DNA from: Thermoflexus hugenholtzii
GTDB taxonomy: Bacteria; Chloroflexota; Anaerolineae; Thermoflexales; Thermoflexaceae
Direction of reading: 5' to 3'
Length of the DNA: 64,000 nt
NCBI RefSeq assembly: GCF_018771565.1
Contig: NZ_CP076326.1
Location: forward strand, 1,426,001-1,490,000
Shown here: one piece after another, positions 3,001 through 34,131 of the stretch
How the letters are laid out: every line of letters begins with the position of its first letter
Position numbering within the stretch: the first letter of the stretch is position 1
Position numbers and translations under genes: made by a program
Notes under the pieces: generated by a model
The model's input: the letters and a program-made list of their open reading frames with translations, nothing else
Databases searched by the model: none
Told to the model about the DNA's origin: nothing

Positions 3001-5857
3001 CCAGCAGGCCCAGGAAGCCTTCCACCAAGCCCTCCAAACGGCAGAAGCAATCAAAGGGGCATGGGAACAGGCTTGGGCCTTGAGGGCCATTGCGGAGGCC
3101 ATGGCCAGGGCCGGAATGACCCAGCAGGCCCTTTGGGAGCAAGCCCGCCGAACGGCAGAAGCAATCAAAGAGCCACGGGAGCGGGCATGGGCCTTGGGGG
3201 CCATCGCGGAAGCCATGGCCAGCGCCGGAATGACCCAGCAGGCCCAGGAAGCCTTCCACCAAGCCCTCCAAACGGCAGAAGCAATTAAAGAGGCTGGGGA
3301 GCGGGCATGGGCCTTGGGGGCCATTGCGGAGGCCATGGCCAGGGCCGGAATGACCCAGCAGGCCCAGGAAGCCTTCCACCAAGCCCTCCGAACGGCAGAA
3401 GCAATCGAAGAGCCACAGGAGCGGGCAAAGGCCTTGGGGACCATTGCGGAGGCCATGGCCAGGGCCGGAATGACCCAGCAGGCCCAGGAAGCCTTCCACC
3501 AAGCCCTCCAAACGGCAGAAGCAATCAAAGGGGCATGGGAACAGGCTTGGGCCTTGAGGGCCATTGCGGAGGCCATGGCCAGGGCCGGAATGACCCAGCA
3601 GGCCCTTTGGGAGCAAGCCCGCCGAACGGCAGAAGCAATCAAAGAGCCACGGGAACAGGCTTGGGCCTTGAGGGCCATCGCGGAAGCCATGGCCAGCGCC
3701 GGAATGTGGGAGCAAGCCCTCCGGACAGCAGAAGTAATCGAAAGGGCACGGGAGCGGGCAGAGGCCTTGGGAGCCATCGCGAAAGCCATGGCCAGCGCCG
3801 GAATGTGGGAGCAAGCCCGCCGAACGGCAGAAGCAATCAAAGAGCCACGGGAACAGGCTTGGGCCTTGAGGGCCATCGCGGAAGCCATGGCCAGCGCCGG
3901 AATGTGGGAGCAAGCCCTCCGGACAGCAGAAGTAATCGAAAGGGCACGGGAGCGGGCAGAGGCCTTGGGAGCCATCGCGAAAGCCATGGCCAGCGCCGGA
4001 ATGTGGGAGCAAGCCCGCCGAACGGCAGAAGCAATCAAAGAGCCACGGGAACAGGCTTGGGCCTTGAGGGCCATCGCGGAAGCCATGGCCAGCGCCGGAA
4101 TGTGGGAGCAAGCCCGCCAAACGGCAGAAGCAATCAAAGAGCCACGGGAACAGGCTTGGGCCTTGAGGGCCATCGCGGAAGCCATGGCCAGGGCCGGAAT
4201 GACCCAGCAGGCCCAGGAAGCCTTCCACCAAGCCCTCCGAACGGCAGAAGCAACCGAAGAGCCACGGGAACAGGCTTGGGCCTTGTGGGCCATTGCGGAA
4301 GCCATGGCCAGCGCCGGAATGTGGGAGCAAGCCCGCCAAACGGCAGAAGCAATCAAAGAGCCACGGGAACAGGCTTGGGCCTTGGGGGCCATCGCGAAAG
4401 CCATGGCCAGCGCCGGAATGACCCAGCAGGCCCAGGAAGCCTTCCACAAAGCCCGCCGGACAGCAGAAGCAATCAAAGAGCCACGGGAACGGGCAGAGGC
4501 CTTGGGGGCCATCGCGGAAGCCATGGCCAGGGCCGGAATGTGGGAGCAAGCCCGCCGAACGGCAGAAGCAATCAAAGAGCCACGGGAACGGGCGGAGGCC
4601 TTGAGGGCCATTGCGGAAGCCATGGCCAGGGCCGGAATGACCCAGCAGGCCCTTTGGGAGCAAGCCCGCCGAACGGCAGAAGCAATCAAAGAGGCTGGGG
4701 AGCGGGCATGGGCCTTGAGGGCCATTGCGGAGGCCATGGCCAGGGCCGGAATGTGGGAGCAAGCCCGCCGAACGGCAGAAGCAGTCGAAGAGCCACAGGA
4801 GCGGGCAAAGGCCTTGGGGGCCATTGCGGAGGCCATGGCCAGGGCCGGAATGACCCAGCAGGCCCAGGAGGCCTTCCACCAAGCCCTCCAAACGGCAGAA
4901 GCAATCAAAGGGGCATGGGAACAGGCTTGGGCCTTGAGGGCCATTGCGGAGGCCATGGCCAGGGCCGGAATGACCCAGCAGGCCCTTTGGGAGCAAGCCC
5001 GCCGAACGGCAGAAGCAATCAAAGAGCCACGGGAACAGGCTTGGGCCTTGAGGGCCATCGCGGAAGCCATGGCCAGCGCCGGAATGTGGGAGCAAGCCCG
5101 CCAAACGGCAGAAGCAATCAAAGAGCTACGGGAACAGGCTTGGGCCTTGAGGGCCATTGCGGAAGCCATGGCCAGGGCCGGAATGTGGGAGCAAGCCCGC
5201 CAAACGGCAGAAGCAACCGAAGAGCCACGGGAACAGGCTTGGGCCTTGTGGGCCATTGCGGAAGCCATGGCCAGCGCCGGAATGTGGGAGCAAGCCCGCC
5301 AAACGGCAGAAGCAATCAAAGAGCCACGGGAACAGGCTTGGGCCTTGGGGGCCATCGCGAAAGCCATGGCCAGCGCCGGAATGACCCAGCAGGCCCAGGA
5401 AGCCTTCCACAAAGCCCGCCGGACAGCAGAAGCAATCAAAGAGCCACGGGAACGGGCAGAGGCCTTGGGGGCCATCGCGGAAGCCATGGCCAGGGCCGGA
5501 ATGTGGGAGCAAGCCCGCCGAACGGCAGAAGCAATCAAAGAGCTACGGGAACGGGCGGAGGCCTTGGGGGCCATCGCGGAAGCCATGGCCAGGATCGGGG
5601 AAGCGGAGGGAGCGGCTGGCATCATGGAGCGAGAGATCGGGGCGCGGGAGCAAGGATTGCTCGCCGTCCTTCAGGCGCTGACCGAACGGGCGCAGGAAGA
5701 GGACGAAAAGAGCAAGCGGGTCTTCCTGCGGCTGCTCCCCCTGTGCGGCTGGTCGCTGGAGCTGGCCTATTCCGCCTGCGGGCTGCTGGCCCGGCTCTAC
5801 CCGCACCAGGCGGAAGGGATCGCCCGGGCGATCCGCGGCATGCCGCCCGCGGCGTAG
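35..5857 (+). CDS. STAND/NACHT-type ATPase with long TPR-like repeat array
   Basis: 1940 residues. Residues 1-240 are an unrecognised, mostly helical N-terminal domain. A coiled coil follows at about 245-290 (LERLEAVQRQLEELGRQQ). The P-loop NTPase domain has Walker A APAGYGKT (Lys362) and Walker B VLVLDGLDE (Asp457, Asp460, Glu461), an arrangement typical of STAND/NACHT ATPases. A helical region leads into 26 near-identical repeats at residues 916-1854, then a short unique tail ends the protein. In the STAND family the repeats are the sensor, the ATPase is the oligomerising switch and the N-terminus is the effector; many members act in antiphage defence or signalling. That role is inferred here, because the effector domain was not identified. 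The start has a GGGGGG stretch about 8 bases upstream. The window begins 34 bases before the gene, so its upstream neighbours are unseen. Several long open frames overlap it on both strands but are by-products of the repeats. Confidence 0.85.
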   Translation: MAELTWTGFVLSSIVAGILGNRADAVFCSLWRTIYDRLRRGDRPVRDLQQAIRRALLQATRSLLSDALRERGVDVQNLVSRFSRRLPFGQPRDEESRWLWRAYHELTAELGRVSDAEYVPPSSVAESRLAFLLQPQGVAAEERGKELRERLTNEWLQELRGWFGEPPEVFIKRLREGWQPPEGAGRVSWFDLVCAFFAHEVKHNDVVFRIVTAKLLAGLEVDGRSLGDAFLDYLERQFAPVLERLEAVQRQLEELGRQQREGFEELKARQAELTAILLPMRETQQALQALLADAAGWVRWIAERFGVSHVAAYLDRATRRFLWEKWAQGFVGRKGAMERLNRFIAANPNGVAVVYAPAGYGKTAFLARWIRQVEGRWIGPAGDGEALVEAVCHFFSTAVAKSTEPPNAYAHLLAQLARLSNSPFPIPDRDDERWAALHNLLADRRWPPGVKAVLVLDGLDEAEGKVEPFVPRPIPDGLFVIVSGRWDGKGKPPPYLKEWARFAEFIPLEALSEEEIREWLRTTGEGELAQLAEKADFVRTLWEKTGGFPLFIRYLMEDLAQAVRHGRSPEQVLEQTPSGFSEYVQEQFGQLAKLVRNEKGVRDLFALLTVAKGALRQDEAEELTGLSVWDLEGLPYSVIRWFSIGRDEEQETYAFAHPLLAEEFRRHLGREAKEMEDRLLQWCAGWPAHPSPYILRHYADHLHEKGDPALFRLALDPAFAEAQARHLPGEPHLPLKTVRLALEMAIRSEDAPRMAALLIEHARRAGGEETPLQAWRRGHRERALRMATEILFERDPRLGTLWSLLLAWAAESEGEGEWARRILEAARKRWEGAKLEKLEDWQGELAAFWLGELGAVEGAAEAAGLMLDDAHKGKVAAGWASRGLFDRALNVAEGIQEAWKQASAFGAIAEAMARAGMWEQARRTAEAIKEAGERAWALGAIAEAMARAGMTQQALWEQARRTAEAIKEPRERAEALGAIAEAMARAGMTQQAQEAFHQALQTAEAIKGAWEQAWALRAIAEAMARAGMTQQALWEQARRTAEAIKEPRERAWALGAIAEAMASAGMTQQAQEAFHQALQTAEAIKEAGERAWALGAIAEAMARAGMTQQAQEAFHQALRTAEAIEEPQERAKALGTIAEAMARAGMTQQAQEAFHQALQTAEAIKGAWEQAWALRAIAEAMARAGMTQQALWEQARRTAEAIKEPREQAWALRAIAEAMASAGMWEQALRTAEVIERARERAEALGAIAKAMASAGMWEQARRTAEAIKEPREQAWALRAIAEAMASAGMWEQALRTAEVIERARERAEALGAIAKAMASAGMWEQARRTAEAIKEPREQAWALRAIAEAMASAGMWEQARQTAEAIKEPREQAWALRAIAEAMARAGMTQQAQEAFHQALRTAEATEEPREQAWALWAIAEAMASAGMWEQARQTAEAIKEPREQAWALGAIAKAMASAGMTQQAQEAFHKARRTAEAIKEPRERAEALGAIAEAMARAGMWEQARRTAEAIKEPRERAEALRAIAEAMARAGMTQQALWEQARRTAEAIKEAGERAWALRAIAEAMARAGMWEQARRTAEAVEEPQERAKALGAIAEAMARAGMTQQAQEAFHQALQTAEAIKGAWEQAWALRAIAEAMARAGMTQQALWEQARRTAEAIKEPREQAWALRAIAEAMASAGMWEQARQTAEAIKELREQAWALRAIAEAMARAGMWEQARQTAEATEEPREQAWALWAIAEAMASAGMWEQARQTAEAIKEPREQAWALGAIAKAMASAGMTQQAQEAFHKARRTAEAIKEPRERAEALGAIAEAMARAGMWEQARRTAEAIKELRERAEALGAIAEAMARIGEAEGAAGIMEREIGAREQGLLAVLQALTERAQEEDEKSKRVFLRLLPLCGWSLELAYSACGLLARLYPHQAEGIARAIRGMPPAA
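2780..5596 (+). repeat. In-gene tandem array of 26 TPR-like units (99/114/120 bp)
   Basis: The array holds exactly 939 codons: 13 units of 33 residues (starting GMWEQARRTAEAIKE), 5 of 38 residues (GMTQQALWEQARRTAEAIKE) and 8 of 40 residues (GMTQQAQEAFHQAL). All share the tail ALxAIAEAMARA. The 38-residue unit is the 33-residue unit with TQQAL inserted near its start. A degenerate unit (FDRALNVAEG) precedes the array. Nucleotide identity between units is very high. A 198-bp, two-unit block is tandemly duplicated at about 3639-3836 and 3837-4034, and larger blocks recur (units 7-8 match 20-21; units 14-16 resemble 23-25). This indicates recent expansion by recombination. Confidence 0.92.
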
Positions 5858-28938: not shown

Positions 28939-29835
28939 TCAATTCTGGAGCCAGGGATCCGATTCGGCAGGTTCCGGAGAAGCGGTCGGCGACGCCCAGA
29001 ACTCGCCGCCCGGGACAGGGATCCGTCGCGCTCGCCCTTCCCGCTCCAGGGCCTCCATGGCCTCCCGCATCCCCGGAAGATCCCTCCCATAGATCTCCGC
29101 CAGCTCCCGGGTGGTCAGCGGCCCGTAGATCCGGAGCAGCTCCTCAACCGCCCGCGGGGGATGCTCCTCCAGGGTGGGAGCCAGCCGGCGGAGGACCTCC
29201 CGATACGTCGCATACGCGCGGTGGCCCACCACCAGGACCGGCCGCTGGGCACCTGGGACCACCACCGACCCCACATAACGGAAAAGCAGTGTGGGGAACC
29301 CCGTCACCCCGTAACGCCGGCACTCCTCCAGGTCCTCCTCGAACGCGCGCGCCGCACGCCCGTTCTCCAGATCCATGCGCCAGCGTGCGAGATCCAGCCC
29401 TTCCACCTCCCGGGCCAATTCCTCCTGGACCTCCCGCCGGGAGATGTTGCGGCGCTCGGTGAGGGCGGCCCGCCGGAACCGCCGCAGGAGCCGTTCCCCG
29501 ATCTCCTCTCCCTGCAGGAAGGCCGCTTTGACGGCGATGCAGGCCGGCCACGTGGAGAAATGGGGATCGTTCAGCTCCAGCCACAGCCCTTCATCGATGG
29601 GCTGGCCCGAGCGCTGGGAGACCATCCGCCAGTGCGGGGCGACCTGGGCGGCCGTGCGGATATCGTTGAGGGCGTCGTAGAACTCCGCCATGTCCCGCAC
29701 CAGCCCGCCCATGACATACCGGATCCGCACCTGATCCCGAAAGGTCTCCCGGATCCGGTAGAGCATGGGCTCGGTGGCCCAGCACCAGGAGCAGTAAGGA
29801 TCCGTGAAATACGTGACCTCCACCCGCGACGCCAT
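28939..29835 (-). CDS. DsbA/FrnE-family oxidoreductase with C-terminal helical domain
   Basis: 298 residues. The thioredoxin-fold DsbA domain begins VEVTYFTDPYCSWCW with the redox pair Cys15/Cys18; the cis-Pro loop is VTGFPTLLFRY. A C-terminal extension after residue 230 (PLTTRELAEIYGRDLPGMREAMEALEREGRARRI) looks like a winged helix. No signal peptide, so cytosolic, like FrnE-type proteins. The methyltransferase gene ends 10 bases upstream. Compare the paralogue at 32067-32717, which has TGA in place of the first Cys. Confidence 0.88.
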   Translation of the reverse strand: MASRVEVTYFTDPYCSWCWATEPMLYRIRETFRDQVRIRYVMGGLVRDMAEFYDALNDIRTAAQVAPHWRMVSQRSGQPIDEGLWLELNDPHFSTWPACIAVKAAFLQGEEIGERLLRRFRRAALTERRNISRREVQEELAREVEGLDLARWRMDLENGRAARAFEEDLEECRRYGVTGFPTLLFRYVGSVVVPGAQRPVLVVGHRAYATYREVLRRLAPTLEEHPPRAVEELLRIYGPLTTRELAEIYGRDLPGMREAMEALEREGRARRIPVPGGEFWASPTASPEPAESDPWLQN

Positions 29836-29845
29836 CCCCTCCTCC

Positions 29846-30433
29846 TCACCCAATCGGTCCGCAACATCCGGTGCTCCAATCACACCAGAGGCCGGGCTCT
29901 TCCCCCGGGAGGATTTCCAGGGTCTCCGAAGGCGTCTCCGATTCCGCAGGAGGCGCGGCCACCAGCCAGGCCGCCTCCTCCGGAGCCTCCGGGTGGACCT
30001 CCTCGTGGAGAAGGCTCCAGCCCGCTTCCGAGAGCTCGCGCCGGACCCATCGGGCCTCCCCGGCCGAGATCGTGGTGCAGATCAAACGCCCGTCGGGGGC
30101 CAGGAGCCCCGGCAGCCGGGCGAAGACCGCCCGCCAGCGGCTCGGCTGGGCGAGGAGGTCCGGCCGGCGGATCACGATGAGATCGAAGCCGCCCTCCCAG
30201 CCGGGCGGAAGGGTGGCGGCGTCGGCGCAGCGGAACCGGGCCCATGGCACCCGCGCCTGAGCCCGCGCCAACGCCATCTCATCCAGGTCCACCCCCACCA
30301 TCCGCACGACCTCCGGCCCTCCCAGGCGGTCAGCCAGCGCAGCGGCCTCCTCCCCTTCCCCACAACCGATGAGCAGGACACGAAGCGGACGGCGAGAAGG
30401 AAGCCATCCCTCGATCGCCGGGAGCCACTCCAT
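29846..30433 (-). CDS. SAM-dependent class I methyltransferase
   Basis: 195 residues. Motif I is VLLIGCGEGEEAAALA, followed by GVDLDEMALARAQARV (motif post-I) and FDLIVIRRPDLL. The C-terminus is Cys-bearing (LWCDWSTGCCGPIG). The start at MEWLPAIEGW is preceded by AAGGTAAGGTGAAGGTAG. Substrate unknown. Sits between DsbA-like and DoxX genes in the same-strand block. Confidence 0.82.
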   Translation of the reverse strand: MEWLPAIEGWLPSRRPLRVLLIGCGEGEEAAALADRLGGPEVVRMVGVDLDEMALARAQARVPWARFRCADAATLPPGWEGGFDLIVIRRPDLLAQPSRWRAVFARLPGLLAPDGRLICTTISAGEARWVRRELSEAGWSLLHEEVHPEAPEEAAWLVAAPPAESETPSETLEILPGEEPGLWCDWSTGCCGPIG

Positions 30434-30452: not shown

Positions 30453-30909
30453 TTACTCGGCAGGGCATGGTCGCAGCCCGAACAAGGGATCCAGGGCGAT
30501 TCGGCCGGCACCCGTGAAGATCAGGGCCAGGGCGCCCGCCAGAAGGGCGAAGTCGAACTCCCATCCGGTGGCCTGTTGGGCCATGAAGGGCACCTTCATG
30601 AAGCCGCGCTTGGCGACCAGGATGGCCACCAGCATGTCGACGGCGAAACCCAGGGCCAGGATCCGCGTTCCCAACCCCAGGATCAGCAGGACGGCGCCGA
30701 GGGTCTCCAGCAGGGCAACCACCCAGGCGAAGAAGCCCGGCAGCGGAATGCCCATCTGCCGCAGGAAACCCGCGAAGCCGGCCGTGCCCCTCATCGGGGA
30801 GTTCGGGTTCAGCTTCGGCCAGCCGTGGACCAGGAAAATGATCCCCCAGCGCCACACGCAGGATCAGGGGCCCCACATCCCCATACGGTCGCATCAGGTT
30901 CTCCAGCAT
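30453..30909 (-). pseudogene. DoxX family protein, frameshifted by one base
   Basis: The N-terminus (MLENLMRPYGDVGPLILRVAL) is in one frame and the remainder (GIIFLVHGWPKLNPNS to the stop at 30453) in another. The join is a run of five C on the plus strand at 30843-30847; four would restore a normal ~151-residue DoxX protein with four membrane helices. A homopolymer sequencing or assembly error is as likely as a true mutation. DoxX proteins are linked to redox and electrophile stress. An intact DoxX gene lies 72 bases upstream. Confidence 0.8.
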
Positions 30910-30981: not shown

Positions 30982-31386
30982 TCAGAACGGCCAGAGGTTC
31001 GGGATCAGGCTGAAGGGCCAGCGCTCGATAAGGAGGAACATCAGCGCTGCCCCCATCAGGGCCATGTTCTTGTTGAAGTTGACCATCTCGATGATGCGCT
31101 GCTGCTGATCCTGCACCGCCCAGAAGTTGTGCATCTTGAAGGTCACGGGCAGGAAGAACAGCACCGCGCTCAGCACCCCGATGCCCGGATACACCCCCAG
31201 CAGGAAGCTGAGGCCGGAGATCAGCAGAAGGATCCCCGAGACGATCACCGCCAGCCGGGGCGCGGGCACCCCCTTATATGCGGCATACTGGGTCAGCTGC
31301 CCCGTGCCCATGATCAGATGGTTGGCCGCGTTGAACAGGTAGAAGAGGCCGACGATGATCCGCCCGATCAGGAACAAGATCTCCAT
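30982..31386 (-). CDS. DoxX-like membrane protein
   Basis: 134 residues, four membrane helices. The N-terminus (MEILFLIGRIIVGLFYLFNAANHLIMG) is typical of DoxX/DUF417-like proteins. The central segment MHNFWAVQDQQQRIIEMVNFNKNMALMGAALMFL matches the family C-terminal half. GGAGGTGTCCT precedes the ATG. Second of two DoxX-type genes in this block. Likely a membrane partner of quinone/electrophile detoxification, by analogy with MhqP. Confidence 0.85.
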   Translation of the reverse strand: MEILFLIGRIIVGLFYLFNAANHLIMGTGQLTQYAAYKGVPAPRLAVIVSGILLLISGLSFLLGVYPGIGVLSAVLFFLPVTFKMHNFWAVQDQQQRIIEMVNFNKNMALMGAALMFLLIERWPFSLIPNLWPF

Positions 31387-31712: not shown

Positions 31713-32042
31713 TCAACCCGCCTCCGGCCCACCGGACCCCCAGAGGGAGGGCAGCGCCGCGATCCGCCGCCAGCCCTCCCCCTCTGTCACCCGTTCCACC
31801 CGCAGGTCCTCGAAATAACGGTCGAGGACCGCCTCCCGCTCCATCGCCAGCGGCGGGGAGCAGTAATCCTCTTCCTCCCAGACGGCCTCCCCTGTAGCCG
31901 GGTCGAGCCGGGCGTTCTCCAGGGAGAAAGTCAGCGCCTCCCCGAAGGGCCGCAGCCGGCGGAACTCTCCCCTTCGCAGGCGCTCGTGAAGCTCCTCCGC
32001 GAGCGCCGGCCGGAGCCGCGCACGAACCAGGTAATGCGCCAT
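31713..32042 (-). CDS. Small conserved-looking hypothetical protein
   Basis: 109 residues, MAHYLVRARLRPALAEELHERLRRGEFRRLRPFGEALTFSL and so on, ending with a short tail. The N-terminal beta-helix pattern suggests a small ferredoxin-like (YCII-like) fold, but I do not recognise the family. Soluble, no Cys cluster (one Cys in EDYCSPPLA). 24 bases downstream of the DsbA-like candidate selenoprotein and in the same direction. Confidence 0.65.
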   Translation of the reverse strand: MAHYLVRARLRPALAEELHERLRRGEFRRLRPFGEALTFSLENARLDPATGEAVWEEEDYCSPPLAMEREAVLDRYFEDLRVERVTEGEGWRRIAALPSLWGSGGPEAG

Positions 32043-32066: not shown

Positions 32067-32717
32067 TCAGGATCGGCGGCTCGGATCCCGCCCCGCCAGG
32101 AGATCCGCGATCACCCGCCGCAGGAACTCCTCCGGCACCGCTCCCTGCACCACCCAGCGATCGTTCAGGATCAGGGTGGGGACGGCGTGGATCCCCCGTC
32201 GTGCGGCCTCCTGCAGGTCCGCCTGCACCCGTCGTTCCACCTCCGGGCTTCGGAAATCCCGCTCCCACCGTTCGAGATCCAGGCCCACCTCCCGGGCGCA
32301 ATCCCGGAGGACCTCGAAGTCGGCGATGTTACGGGCTTCCACGGCGTGGGCCCGCTGCACCCGATCGAACAGATCCCAGTGGGCCTCCGGCCCGCCCTGG
32401 AGCTCAGCGGCCTTGCACGCTTTCAAGCCGGGCATGGAATACGGGTAAGGGAACGAGGCGGCCCGCATCCCCTCCACATGAATGGCCTCGCCGCCCGGAT
32501 GCCGGCGGGCCGCCGCCCAGTGGGTCAGGATCTCCGCCTTCCCTTGCTCCGGCGACCCGAAGATCCGGGAGATCGCCTCCGGGTCCGGAGCGAGGGCGAA
32601 GCAACGGTGCTCCACCGTCACCTGTCCCGCGAATTCCCGCACCACCCTTCGGAGCCTCGCCGAGGCCAGGAAGCACCAGACTCAAAGCACATCGTGGTAG
32701 AACGTCACCCGCACCAT
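32067..32717 (-). CDS. DsbA-family oxidoreductase, candidate selenoprotein (in-frame TGA at UxxC)
   Basis: 217 codons from ATG 32717, which is preceded by GGGAGGAGCGCGCG. Codon 12 is TGA (32684-32682), giving VRVTFYHDVL-TGA-VWCF: the TGA stands where homologues have the first Cys of the CxxC active site, with Cys15 as its partner. The frame then stays open and family-like to the end (EHRCFALAPDPEAI, FPYPYSMPGLKACKAAE, HAVPTLILNDRWVV). UxxC in a thioredoxin fold is a classic selenoprotein arrangement. A SECIS-like hairpin lies just downstream. Alternatives: a nonsense mutation, or initiation at an internal GTG (32645), which would remove the active site and part of the fold. Selenocysteine machinery is not in the window. 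Confidence 0.7.
32647..32673 (-). promoter_or_regulatory. SECIS-like hairpin downstream of the in-frame TGA
   Basis: In mRNA sense, counting from the base after UGA: lower stem 9-12 with 32-35 (CUUC/GAAG), a small internal loop with one G-U pair, upper stem 16-20 with 24-28 (GCCUC/GAGGC), apical loop GGC at 21-23. The loop lies 21 bases after UGA and begins with G, which fits the general bacterial SECIS pattern. GC-rich DNA gives such hairpins by chance, so this is supporting evidence only. Confidence 0.45.
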
Positions 32718-32731
32718 CGCGCGCTCCTCCC

Positions 32732-33622
32732 TTATTCAGGGGGCTCCCCCTCGAAACCGTCCCCCCGGCTCACCCAGACCCCGTTCCCCGAAGGATCCCG
32801 CAGGAAGAAGGCCCGGGAACCCTCGAGAACGAGCCATCCGGCGCGGCGCGCCCGCTCCCGGATCCCCTGCCACGCTTCCTCGTCCGGGACCACCAGGCTG
32901 AAGGCCCGAAGCCCCACGGCGTCCGGAGGCGGCGGGGGTGCGCCCCGGCCGGCCCAGGTGTTCGTCCCCACGTGATGGTGGTAACCCCCGGCGGCGAAGA
33001 AGCGCGCCCCCGGATAGTTCCGCTGCGTCACCGCCAAGCCCAGGATCCCGCTGTAAAACGCCTCCGCCTCATCCAGATCCGCCACGTGCAAATGGACGTG
33101 GCCGATGTCGGTCTCCGGCGGCAGCCCGCTCCACGGCTCGGAGGCGCCCTCTTGAAGCAGCCCCTCGACATCCAGAGGGCGGGTCACCATCGCCAGCTGT
33201 CCCTCCCGCCACGGCCACTGCGCCCGGGGCCGATCCCGATAGATCTCCAGGCCGTTGCCGTCGGGGTCCGGCAGATAGAGGGCCTCGCTCACCCCATGGT
33301 CGGAGAACCCGTGGAACGGCCACTCCGCTTCGATCAGCCGCCGGAAGGTTCGGGCCAGATCCCGGCGCGTCGGCACCCGGATCGCCACGTGATACAGCCC
33401 GGTCGTCCGCGGCGGCTTCGGCCGCGCGTCCCGGCGCTCCGTCAGCGCCAGCAACGGGGATCGCGATCCCGGCGCGGACAGGAGCACGGTGGTTCCCTCC
33501 CGCCCGACCTCCCGGAACCCCAGAAGGTCCCGGTAGAAGGCCAGGGACCGCCCCAGATCTCGGATCTGAAGGTGAACCCCACCGATATGGGTATTCTCGG
33601 GTAACCCGATGCGCTCCCTCAT
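32732..33622 (-). CDS. VOC-superfamily dioxygenase-like protein (two-domain)
   Basis: 296 residues, two vicinal-oxygen-chelate modules. His and Glu ligands are seen in IGGVHLQIRDL, LYHVAIRVP, LPDPDGNGLEIYRDRP, IGHVHLHVADL, HHHVGTNTW and DPSGNGVWV. The pattern resembles catechol 2,3-dioxygenase/CatE. ATG 33622 overlaps the stop of the preceding gene (ATGA), and AAGGAGA lies 9 bases before it. Expected substrate: catechols or quinone-derived aromatics. Confidence 0.9.
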   Translation of the reverse strand: MRERIGLPENTHIGGVHLQIRDLGRSLAFYRDLLGFREVGREGTTVLLSAPGSRSPLLALTERRDARPKPPRTTGLYHVAIRVPTRRDLARTFRRLIEAEWPFHGFSDHGVSEALYLPDPDGNGLEIYRDRPRAQWPWREGQLAMVTRPLDVEGLLQEGASEPWSGLPPETDIGHVHLHVADLDEAEAFYSGILGLAVTQRNYPGARFFAAGGYHHHVGTNTWAGRGAPPPPPDAVGLRAFSLVVPDEEAWQGIRERARRAGWLVLEGSRAFFLRDPSGNGVWVSRGDGFEGEPPE

Positions 33623-34131
33623 TTGTTTCGGTCTCCTTTCTGGGCCTGGACCGGCTCCATCCATTCGCCGCATGCGAAGGCGTAGCTGGCCTGGAGGATC
33701 CGCCATACCACCTCCAGCTCCGCCTCATCCCGCGGCCCATACACCATCACATAGATGGGGGGCAACACCCCCTGGGCGACCAGAGGGTGGAATTCCCCCC
33801 ATCCACGCTCCACCACTCGTTCCGCCAGCTCTGGCGGCAGCGATAGATGCAGGCTTCCATCGTAAGGGGGATGGAGATGGGCGAACTCATAACCGAACAC
33901 AAAAGCCTCCGCCGGGCCCCGCGCTCGCTCCGGGTCCAGGTAAAACGCCCGGGCTCCGGGCACGGAGATCCGACTGGGGGCCACCCGAACGCCCGGCAGG
34001 GCCTGCGCCCGTTCGAACAGTGCCTCCTGCAGCGCCCGAGGGGCGTTCTGGGTGAGCTGCTGGTGGGGCATCGAGCGGCGCGTCAACGGCCGCTCCCCCG
34101 TGCGCGCCGGGAGATCCTCCAGGCGATCCAT
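33619..34131 (-). CDS. DUF5519/luciferase-domain-like protein
   Basis: 170 residues. Segments PGVRVAPSRISVPGARAFYLD, GYEFAHLHPPYDGSLHLSLPPELAERVVERGWGEFHPL and IYVMVYGPRDEAELEVVW match a small conserved family often annotated as a luciferase domain. The His-rich HLHPPYDGSLHL may bind metal or flavin. The function is not known. Good GGGGAGG ribosome-binding site; coupled to the following VOC gene by a 4-base overlap. Confidence 0.78.
   Translation of the reverse strand: MDRLEDLPARTGERPLTRRSMPHQQLTQNAPRALQEALFERAQALPGVRVAPSRISVPGARAFYLDPERARGPAEAFVFGYEFAHLHPPYDGSLHLSLPPELAERVVERGWGEFHPLVAQGVLPPIYVMVYGPRDEAELEVVWRILQASYAFACGEWMEPVQAQKGDRNK

Follow-up and report, generated by a model that had tools for sequence, protein, structure and literature searches.

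Does the in-frame TGA at the twelfth codon of a DsbA-family gene in Thermoflexus hugenholtzii end translation, or is it read as selenocysteine (Sec)? The gene lies on the minus strand of the 64,000-nucleotide stretch of DNA that was analysed (the window), and is laid out as follows.

32067–32717, minus strand: gene of 216 codons (stop not counted) for a DsbA/FrnE-like protein with a predicted Sec, recognized by read-through homology, TGA-bearing orthologues and an AlphaFold2 model (pLDDT 95.3)
32682–32684, minus strand: codon 12 (TGA), the predicted Sec of the UVWC motif; in the alignment it shares an invariant Cys/Sec column with the first active-site Cys of the Cys homologues
32724–32731, minus strand: Shine-Dalgarno-like GGGAGGAG, preceding the ATG at 32717

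The original prediction was that this is a selenoprotein gene, with the TGA falling on the first Cys of CxxC. From comparison of sequences we came to the same reading with high confidence: the UGA at codon 12 is very probably decoded as Sec. The proposed start held up, as the Shine-Dalgarno-like sequence (32731–32724) does stand before ATG 32717, and the TGA gives the motif U-V-W-C. The frame stays open past the TGA, for 204 codons (13–216) and not the 205 first counted, and is closed by a second TGA (32069–32067). When the read-through product was compared with Pfam, PF01323 (DSBA) scored 71 bits (cut-off 25.6) and Thioredoxin_5 scored 59 bits, both over nearly the full length, confirming that DsbA-family sequence continues beyond the TGA. 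A PF01323 score above cut-off and a U at the first position of CxxC are the marks of a DsbA-like selenoprotein, and the product has both.

A second genome of the genus (G004) contains a copy that is 97% identical and likewise has TGA as codon 12. The two genes differ at 23 nucleotides, 16 of which are third positions, and the first 60 nucleotides are without any difference. Orthologues with 55–57% identity (FFHDALUAWC, FFHDVLUAWC) occur in three genomes of the phylum that belong to a distant family, again with TGA at this codon. Cys orthologues (TGC/TGT), 47–48% identical, were found in one genome each of Ignavibacteriae, Stygiobacter and Bacteroidales. The Sec and Cys orthologues together form one clade (support 0.985), and in a 25-sequence alignment C12 (the Cys/Sec column), C15 and P180 are invariant. 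The occurrence of TGA at codon 12 is above chance: four orthologues of other genomes share it, down to 55% identity, and the remaining ones have Cys. Among the aligned orthologues no other stop codon occurs at this position; other stop codons or frameshifts there had been named in the original prediction as grounds for giving up the Sec reading. In a 53%-identical relative on an Aminicenantes contig (L056, ~3850–4200), the match begins only at residue 29, and no in-frame N-terminal part was found.

These comparisons bear on whether the TGA is a true stop in a decaying pseudogene, or a sequencing error. To a plain gene caller codon 12 is a stop, and the gene is patchy within the genus: a search of nine same-genus genomes, not all of them complete, did not find it in seven. 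However, the same TGA occurs in an independent genome and in the orthologues at 55–57%, the dN/dS downstream of the TGA is 0.115 (G004 against the window gene), and beyond the TGA the gene is without further lesions. This explanation was rejected as highly improbable on the strength of the shared TGA and the low dN/dS. For the selenoprotein reading, the UGA aligns to the Cys of homologues, and UGA homologues elsewhere are under purifying selection. In addition, selA is present in all 13 checked genomes with the TGA version and absent from two genomes (G245, G342) that have Cys versions only.

Another way to avoid the TGA is translation from a downstream GTG at 32645, giving a protein of 192 aa that lacks the active site. 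The open frame exists, and automatic callers may pick this GTG. Its product, however, would have neither strand 1 nor the CxxC site; in the two same-genus genomes the first 60 nucleotides are identical, a Shine-Dalgarno-like sequence precedes ATG 32717, and the alternation of TGA and Cys is conserved at codon 12. We give such a start very little credence. Since TGA is shared with the 97% and the 55–57% orthologues and Cys stands in the 47–48% ones, sequencing error, pseudogene and downstream start are all effectively ruled out, leaving Sec at codon 12 as the preferred reading.

The host genome (one contig, 3.32 Mb) was found to encode the whole machinery for Sec, i.e., selA, selB, selC and selD. 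A tRNA-Sec at 1149581–1149673 scored 78.1 bits and was called tRNA-SeC, anticodon tca, by ARAGORN. The score was 562.9 bits for selA and 297.9 bits (325.8 including the C-terminal part) for selB, which lies at ~1422546–1424453, some 1.5 kb beyond the window. For selD (G000:C1:2801258–2802193, L049) it was 377 bits, and this gene has its own UGA in the canonical ASCAGU motif (ASCAGUASK); SelD of the host is thus a UGA selenoprotein as well. Absence of selB and tRNA-Sec had been named beforehand as evidence that would count against Sec; both are in the genome. Together with a further UGA gene (see the end of the text), the tRNA-Sec, selA, selB and the UGA-bearing selD identify the organism as a genuine Sec user. 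Decoding of UGA as Trp or Cys through general reassignment or readthrough is less probable still than the explanations above, because UGA terminates this gene itself and other frames of the genome, and because a dedicated Sec system is present.

The original prediction had also pointed to a hairpin with a GGC loop downstream of the UGA.

32653–32667, minus strand: candidate bSECIS hairpin GGCCTC-GGC-GAGGCT, with 20 nt between the UGA and the loop, which starts at the 21st base

The hairpin is present, and its layout agrees with the published bSECIS model, in which a loop of 3–9 nt has a G in its first two positions and lies 16–37 nt after the UGA (PMC13188914). By itself it is no stronger than what synonymous shuffling of this GC-rich gene produces: 39% of the shuffles matched it, and as a stand-alone proof of Sec it was rejected for that reason. 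RNAfold z-scores for the region after the UGA were 0.1 to −1.1, and an Rfam scan of the hairpin region gave chance matches only. Across homologues the picture was clearer. Hairpin scores of at least 13 were obtained for 14 of 21 UGA genes against 10 of 76 Cys genes, in a comparison that was not GC-matched. Set against its own synonymous null, the mean score was 13.7 vs 8.5 for UGA genes and 7.5 vs 7.6 for Cys genes; on shuffling, four of the 21 UGA genes were at p ≤ 0.05, and the median p was 0.105 (UGA) vs 0.635 (Cys). By eye, the hairpins of relatives retain pairing despite changes (CTCC/GGAG, GTCC/GGAC, TTCC/GGAA). It is this enrichment across UGA homologues that suggests a function for the hairpin, which taken by itself is weak evidence.

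The window protein was modelled with AlphaFold2 on the basis of its sequence and eight Cys homologues. The model of the window protein (pLDDT 95.3, pTM 0.91) was a confident FrnE/YjbH-like fold. Strand 1 comprises residues 2–8 and is encoded before the UGA, bearing out the earlier assignment of an N-terminal β-strand upstream of the TGA, and helix 1 begins directly after the UGA; an internal start would thus delete strand 1 along with the catalytic residue. The closest solved structures were YjbH, 2in3 (a putative disulfide isomerase) and FrnE of Deinococcus radiodurans. The protein has the features of the FrnE subfamily (cd03024), namely a Trx domain with a helical insertion, an N-terminal [C/U]xxC, and VP before strand 3 (the predicted cis-Pro loop, with the invariant P180). 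The C-terminal CxxxxC of D. radiodurans FrnE is absent from the window sequence; this motif is optional in the subfamily, being found in many but not all members (PMC8945050).

Taken together, the gene would encode a cytoplasmic thiol-disulfide (or selenol-thiol) oxidoreductase of the DsbA/FrnE type. We infer that SelB and tRNA-Sec would insert Sec at UGA codon 12, aided by the hairpin just after the codon, while the final UGA would serve as stop. The selenol of UVWC may then attack substrate disulfides or oxidants, with Cys15 as the resolving residue, in a putative reductase or isomerase role. A cytoplasmic location is predicted because a signal peptide would not fit ahead of residue 12.

How does this protein compare with known ones? 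Reports of UxxC DsbA-like selenoproteins go back to 2005, when nine sequences from the Sargasso Sea were described (COG2761; PMC1088965). Examples from complete genomes followed in 2006 (PMC1794560), and in 2008 the GOS data gave 63 sequences under the name 'DsbA 1' (PMC2398784); a 2026 review lists a 'DsbA-like protein form 1' (PMC13188914). The window gene is a new example of this already catalogued group (COG2761/PF01323), with which it shares the Pfam DSBA fold, a predicted Sec as the first residue of UxxC, common Cys homologues and a candidate hairpin after the UGA. Unlike the UP[WFY]C of those selenoproteins, it belongs to a narrower subfamily with HDxL[U/C]xWC (UVWC/UAWC), set apart by motif. 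With D. radiodurans FrnE (5cnw; PMC8945050) it has in common the fold (TMq 0.75) and a predicted role as cytoplasmic thiol oxidoreductase, but the identity is ~23%, and FrnE has Cys in place of Sec and the extra C-terminal CxxxxC. The best match among solved structures was YjbH/SpxH (6gho/6ghb, GK0824; E 2.3e-10 by fold, 3.1e-12 by sequence), whose own role is that of an adaptor binding Spx. The Rcas_1661-type thioredoxin-like (seleno)lipoproteins (NF041057, DsbG-like) are likewise a Sec thioredoxin-fold family and have an NCBIfam model; membership in that family was rejected (23.9 bits vs a cut-off of 190). As no NCBIfam model scored above cut-off for the window protein, automatic annotation may truncate or miss the gene. 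With the present reading, a gene that routine annotation may shorten or label a pseudogene is set right, and the Chloroflexota gain a well-supported Sec enzyme; a survey of 2006 had listed only three selenoproteins for this phylum (PMC1794560). Selenium goes unmentioned in a paper on the genus Thermoflexus.

We also examined the neighbouring genes.

32732–33706, minus strand: VOC/glyoxalase-fold gene on the upstream side of the UGA gene, 14 nt away
31713–32042, minus strand: 109-aa ORF, possibly of the same operon, 24 nt downstream of the UGA gene and between it and DoxX; no Pfam match
30982–31386, minus strand: gene for a DoxX-like membrane protein of 134 aa, a homologue of the DoxX beside orthologues in other lineages
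30453–30857, minus strand: second DoxX-family gene (PF07681, 68 bits)
28939–29835, minus strand: DsbA-family paralogue with Cys (CSWC), 35% identical; the GTG-extended ORF is 28939–29883

The CSWC paralogue, noticed earlier, is confirmed. The idea of an operon devoted to redox stress is borne out only in part: the neighbours are two VOC/glyoxalase genes, a luciferase-domain gene, the two DoxX genes, the Cys paralogue, and genes for a methyltransferase, an MFS transporter and DUF488.

A gene homologous to the first DoxX (44–49% identical) lies directly beside the orthologue, after a YceI gene, at two other loci, L133 (1021–1464) and L134 (2121–2819), and the DoxX proteins there match PF07681. 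It follows the Cys orthologue by 12 nt in L053 (4648–5043) and L054, and adjoins two UPWC FrnE-like selenoprotein genes (L026, 464–844; L158, 2217–2597). At the other named-genome FrnE loci examined (L055–L132) no such homologue was found. DoxX thus stands beside HDxL[U/C]xWC DsbA genes in the phylum of the window and in Ignavibacteria, for both Sec and Cys versions, and this adjacency across lineages suggests a functional link between DoxX and DsbA. By analogy, DoxX and superoxide dismutase of Mycobacterium belong to one oxidoreductase complex associated with the membrane, which is mentioned in the literature. Gene order hints that the window protein may be coupled to its neighbouring DoxX membrane protein. 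We offer tentatively, and as the less probable case, that the HDxL[U/C]xWC DsbA (Sec or Cys) and an adjacent MHNFW-type DoxX might be the two parts of one conserved system, the soluble selenol enzyme exchanging electrons with a membrane, perhaps quinone-linked, DoxX. A literature search for a DsbA–DoxX operon link found no description, only a single incidental match, and the pairing is apparently an undescribed trait. Occurring across phyla and with both versions, it is a testable lead to a redox partner of these FrnE-like proteins.

Farther FrnE-like proteins of the same phylum also have UGA (UPWC, UPFC, UPYC). UGA was seen at the first active-site codon in many more FrnE/DsbA-like genes of the phylum (L025, L026, L028, L029, L031, L141–L143, L146, L148, L149, L152, L156–L158), which indicates wide use of Sec in this family. 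The named-genome search used a Cys pattern and by design under-samples UGA versions; these were found by a read-through search instead. In the host itself, the second UGA gene lies at ~3.064 Mb (G000:C1 ~3063800–3065370, L163). It is lipoprotein-like and has a DsbA domain with DFQUPYC fused to a peptidylprolyl-isomerase-like domain (domain names assigned by eye, no profile search), and the same UGA occurs in a same-genus genome (L041).
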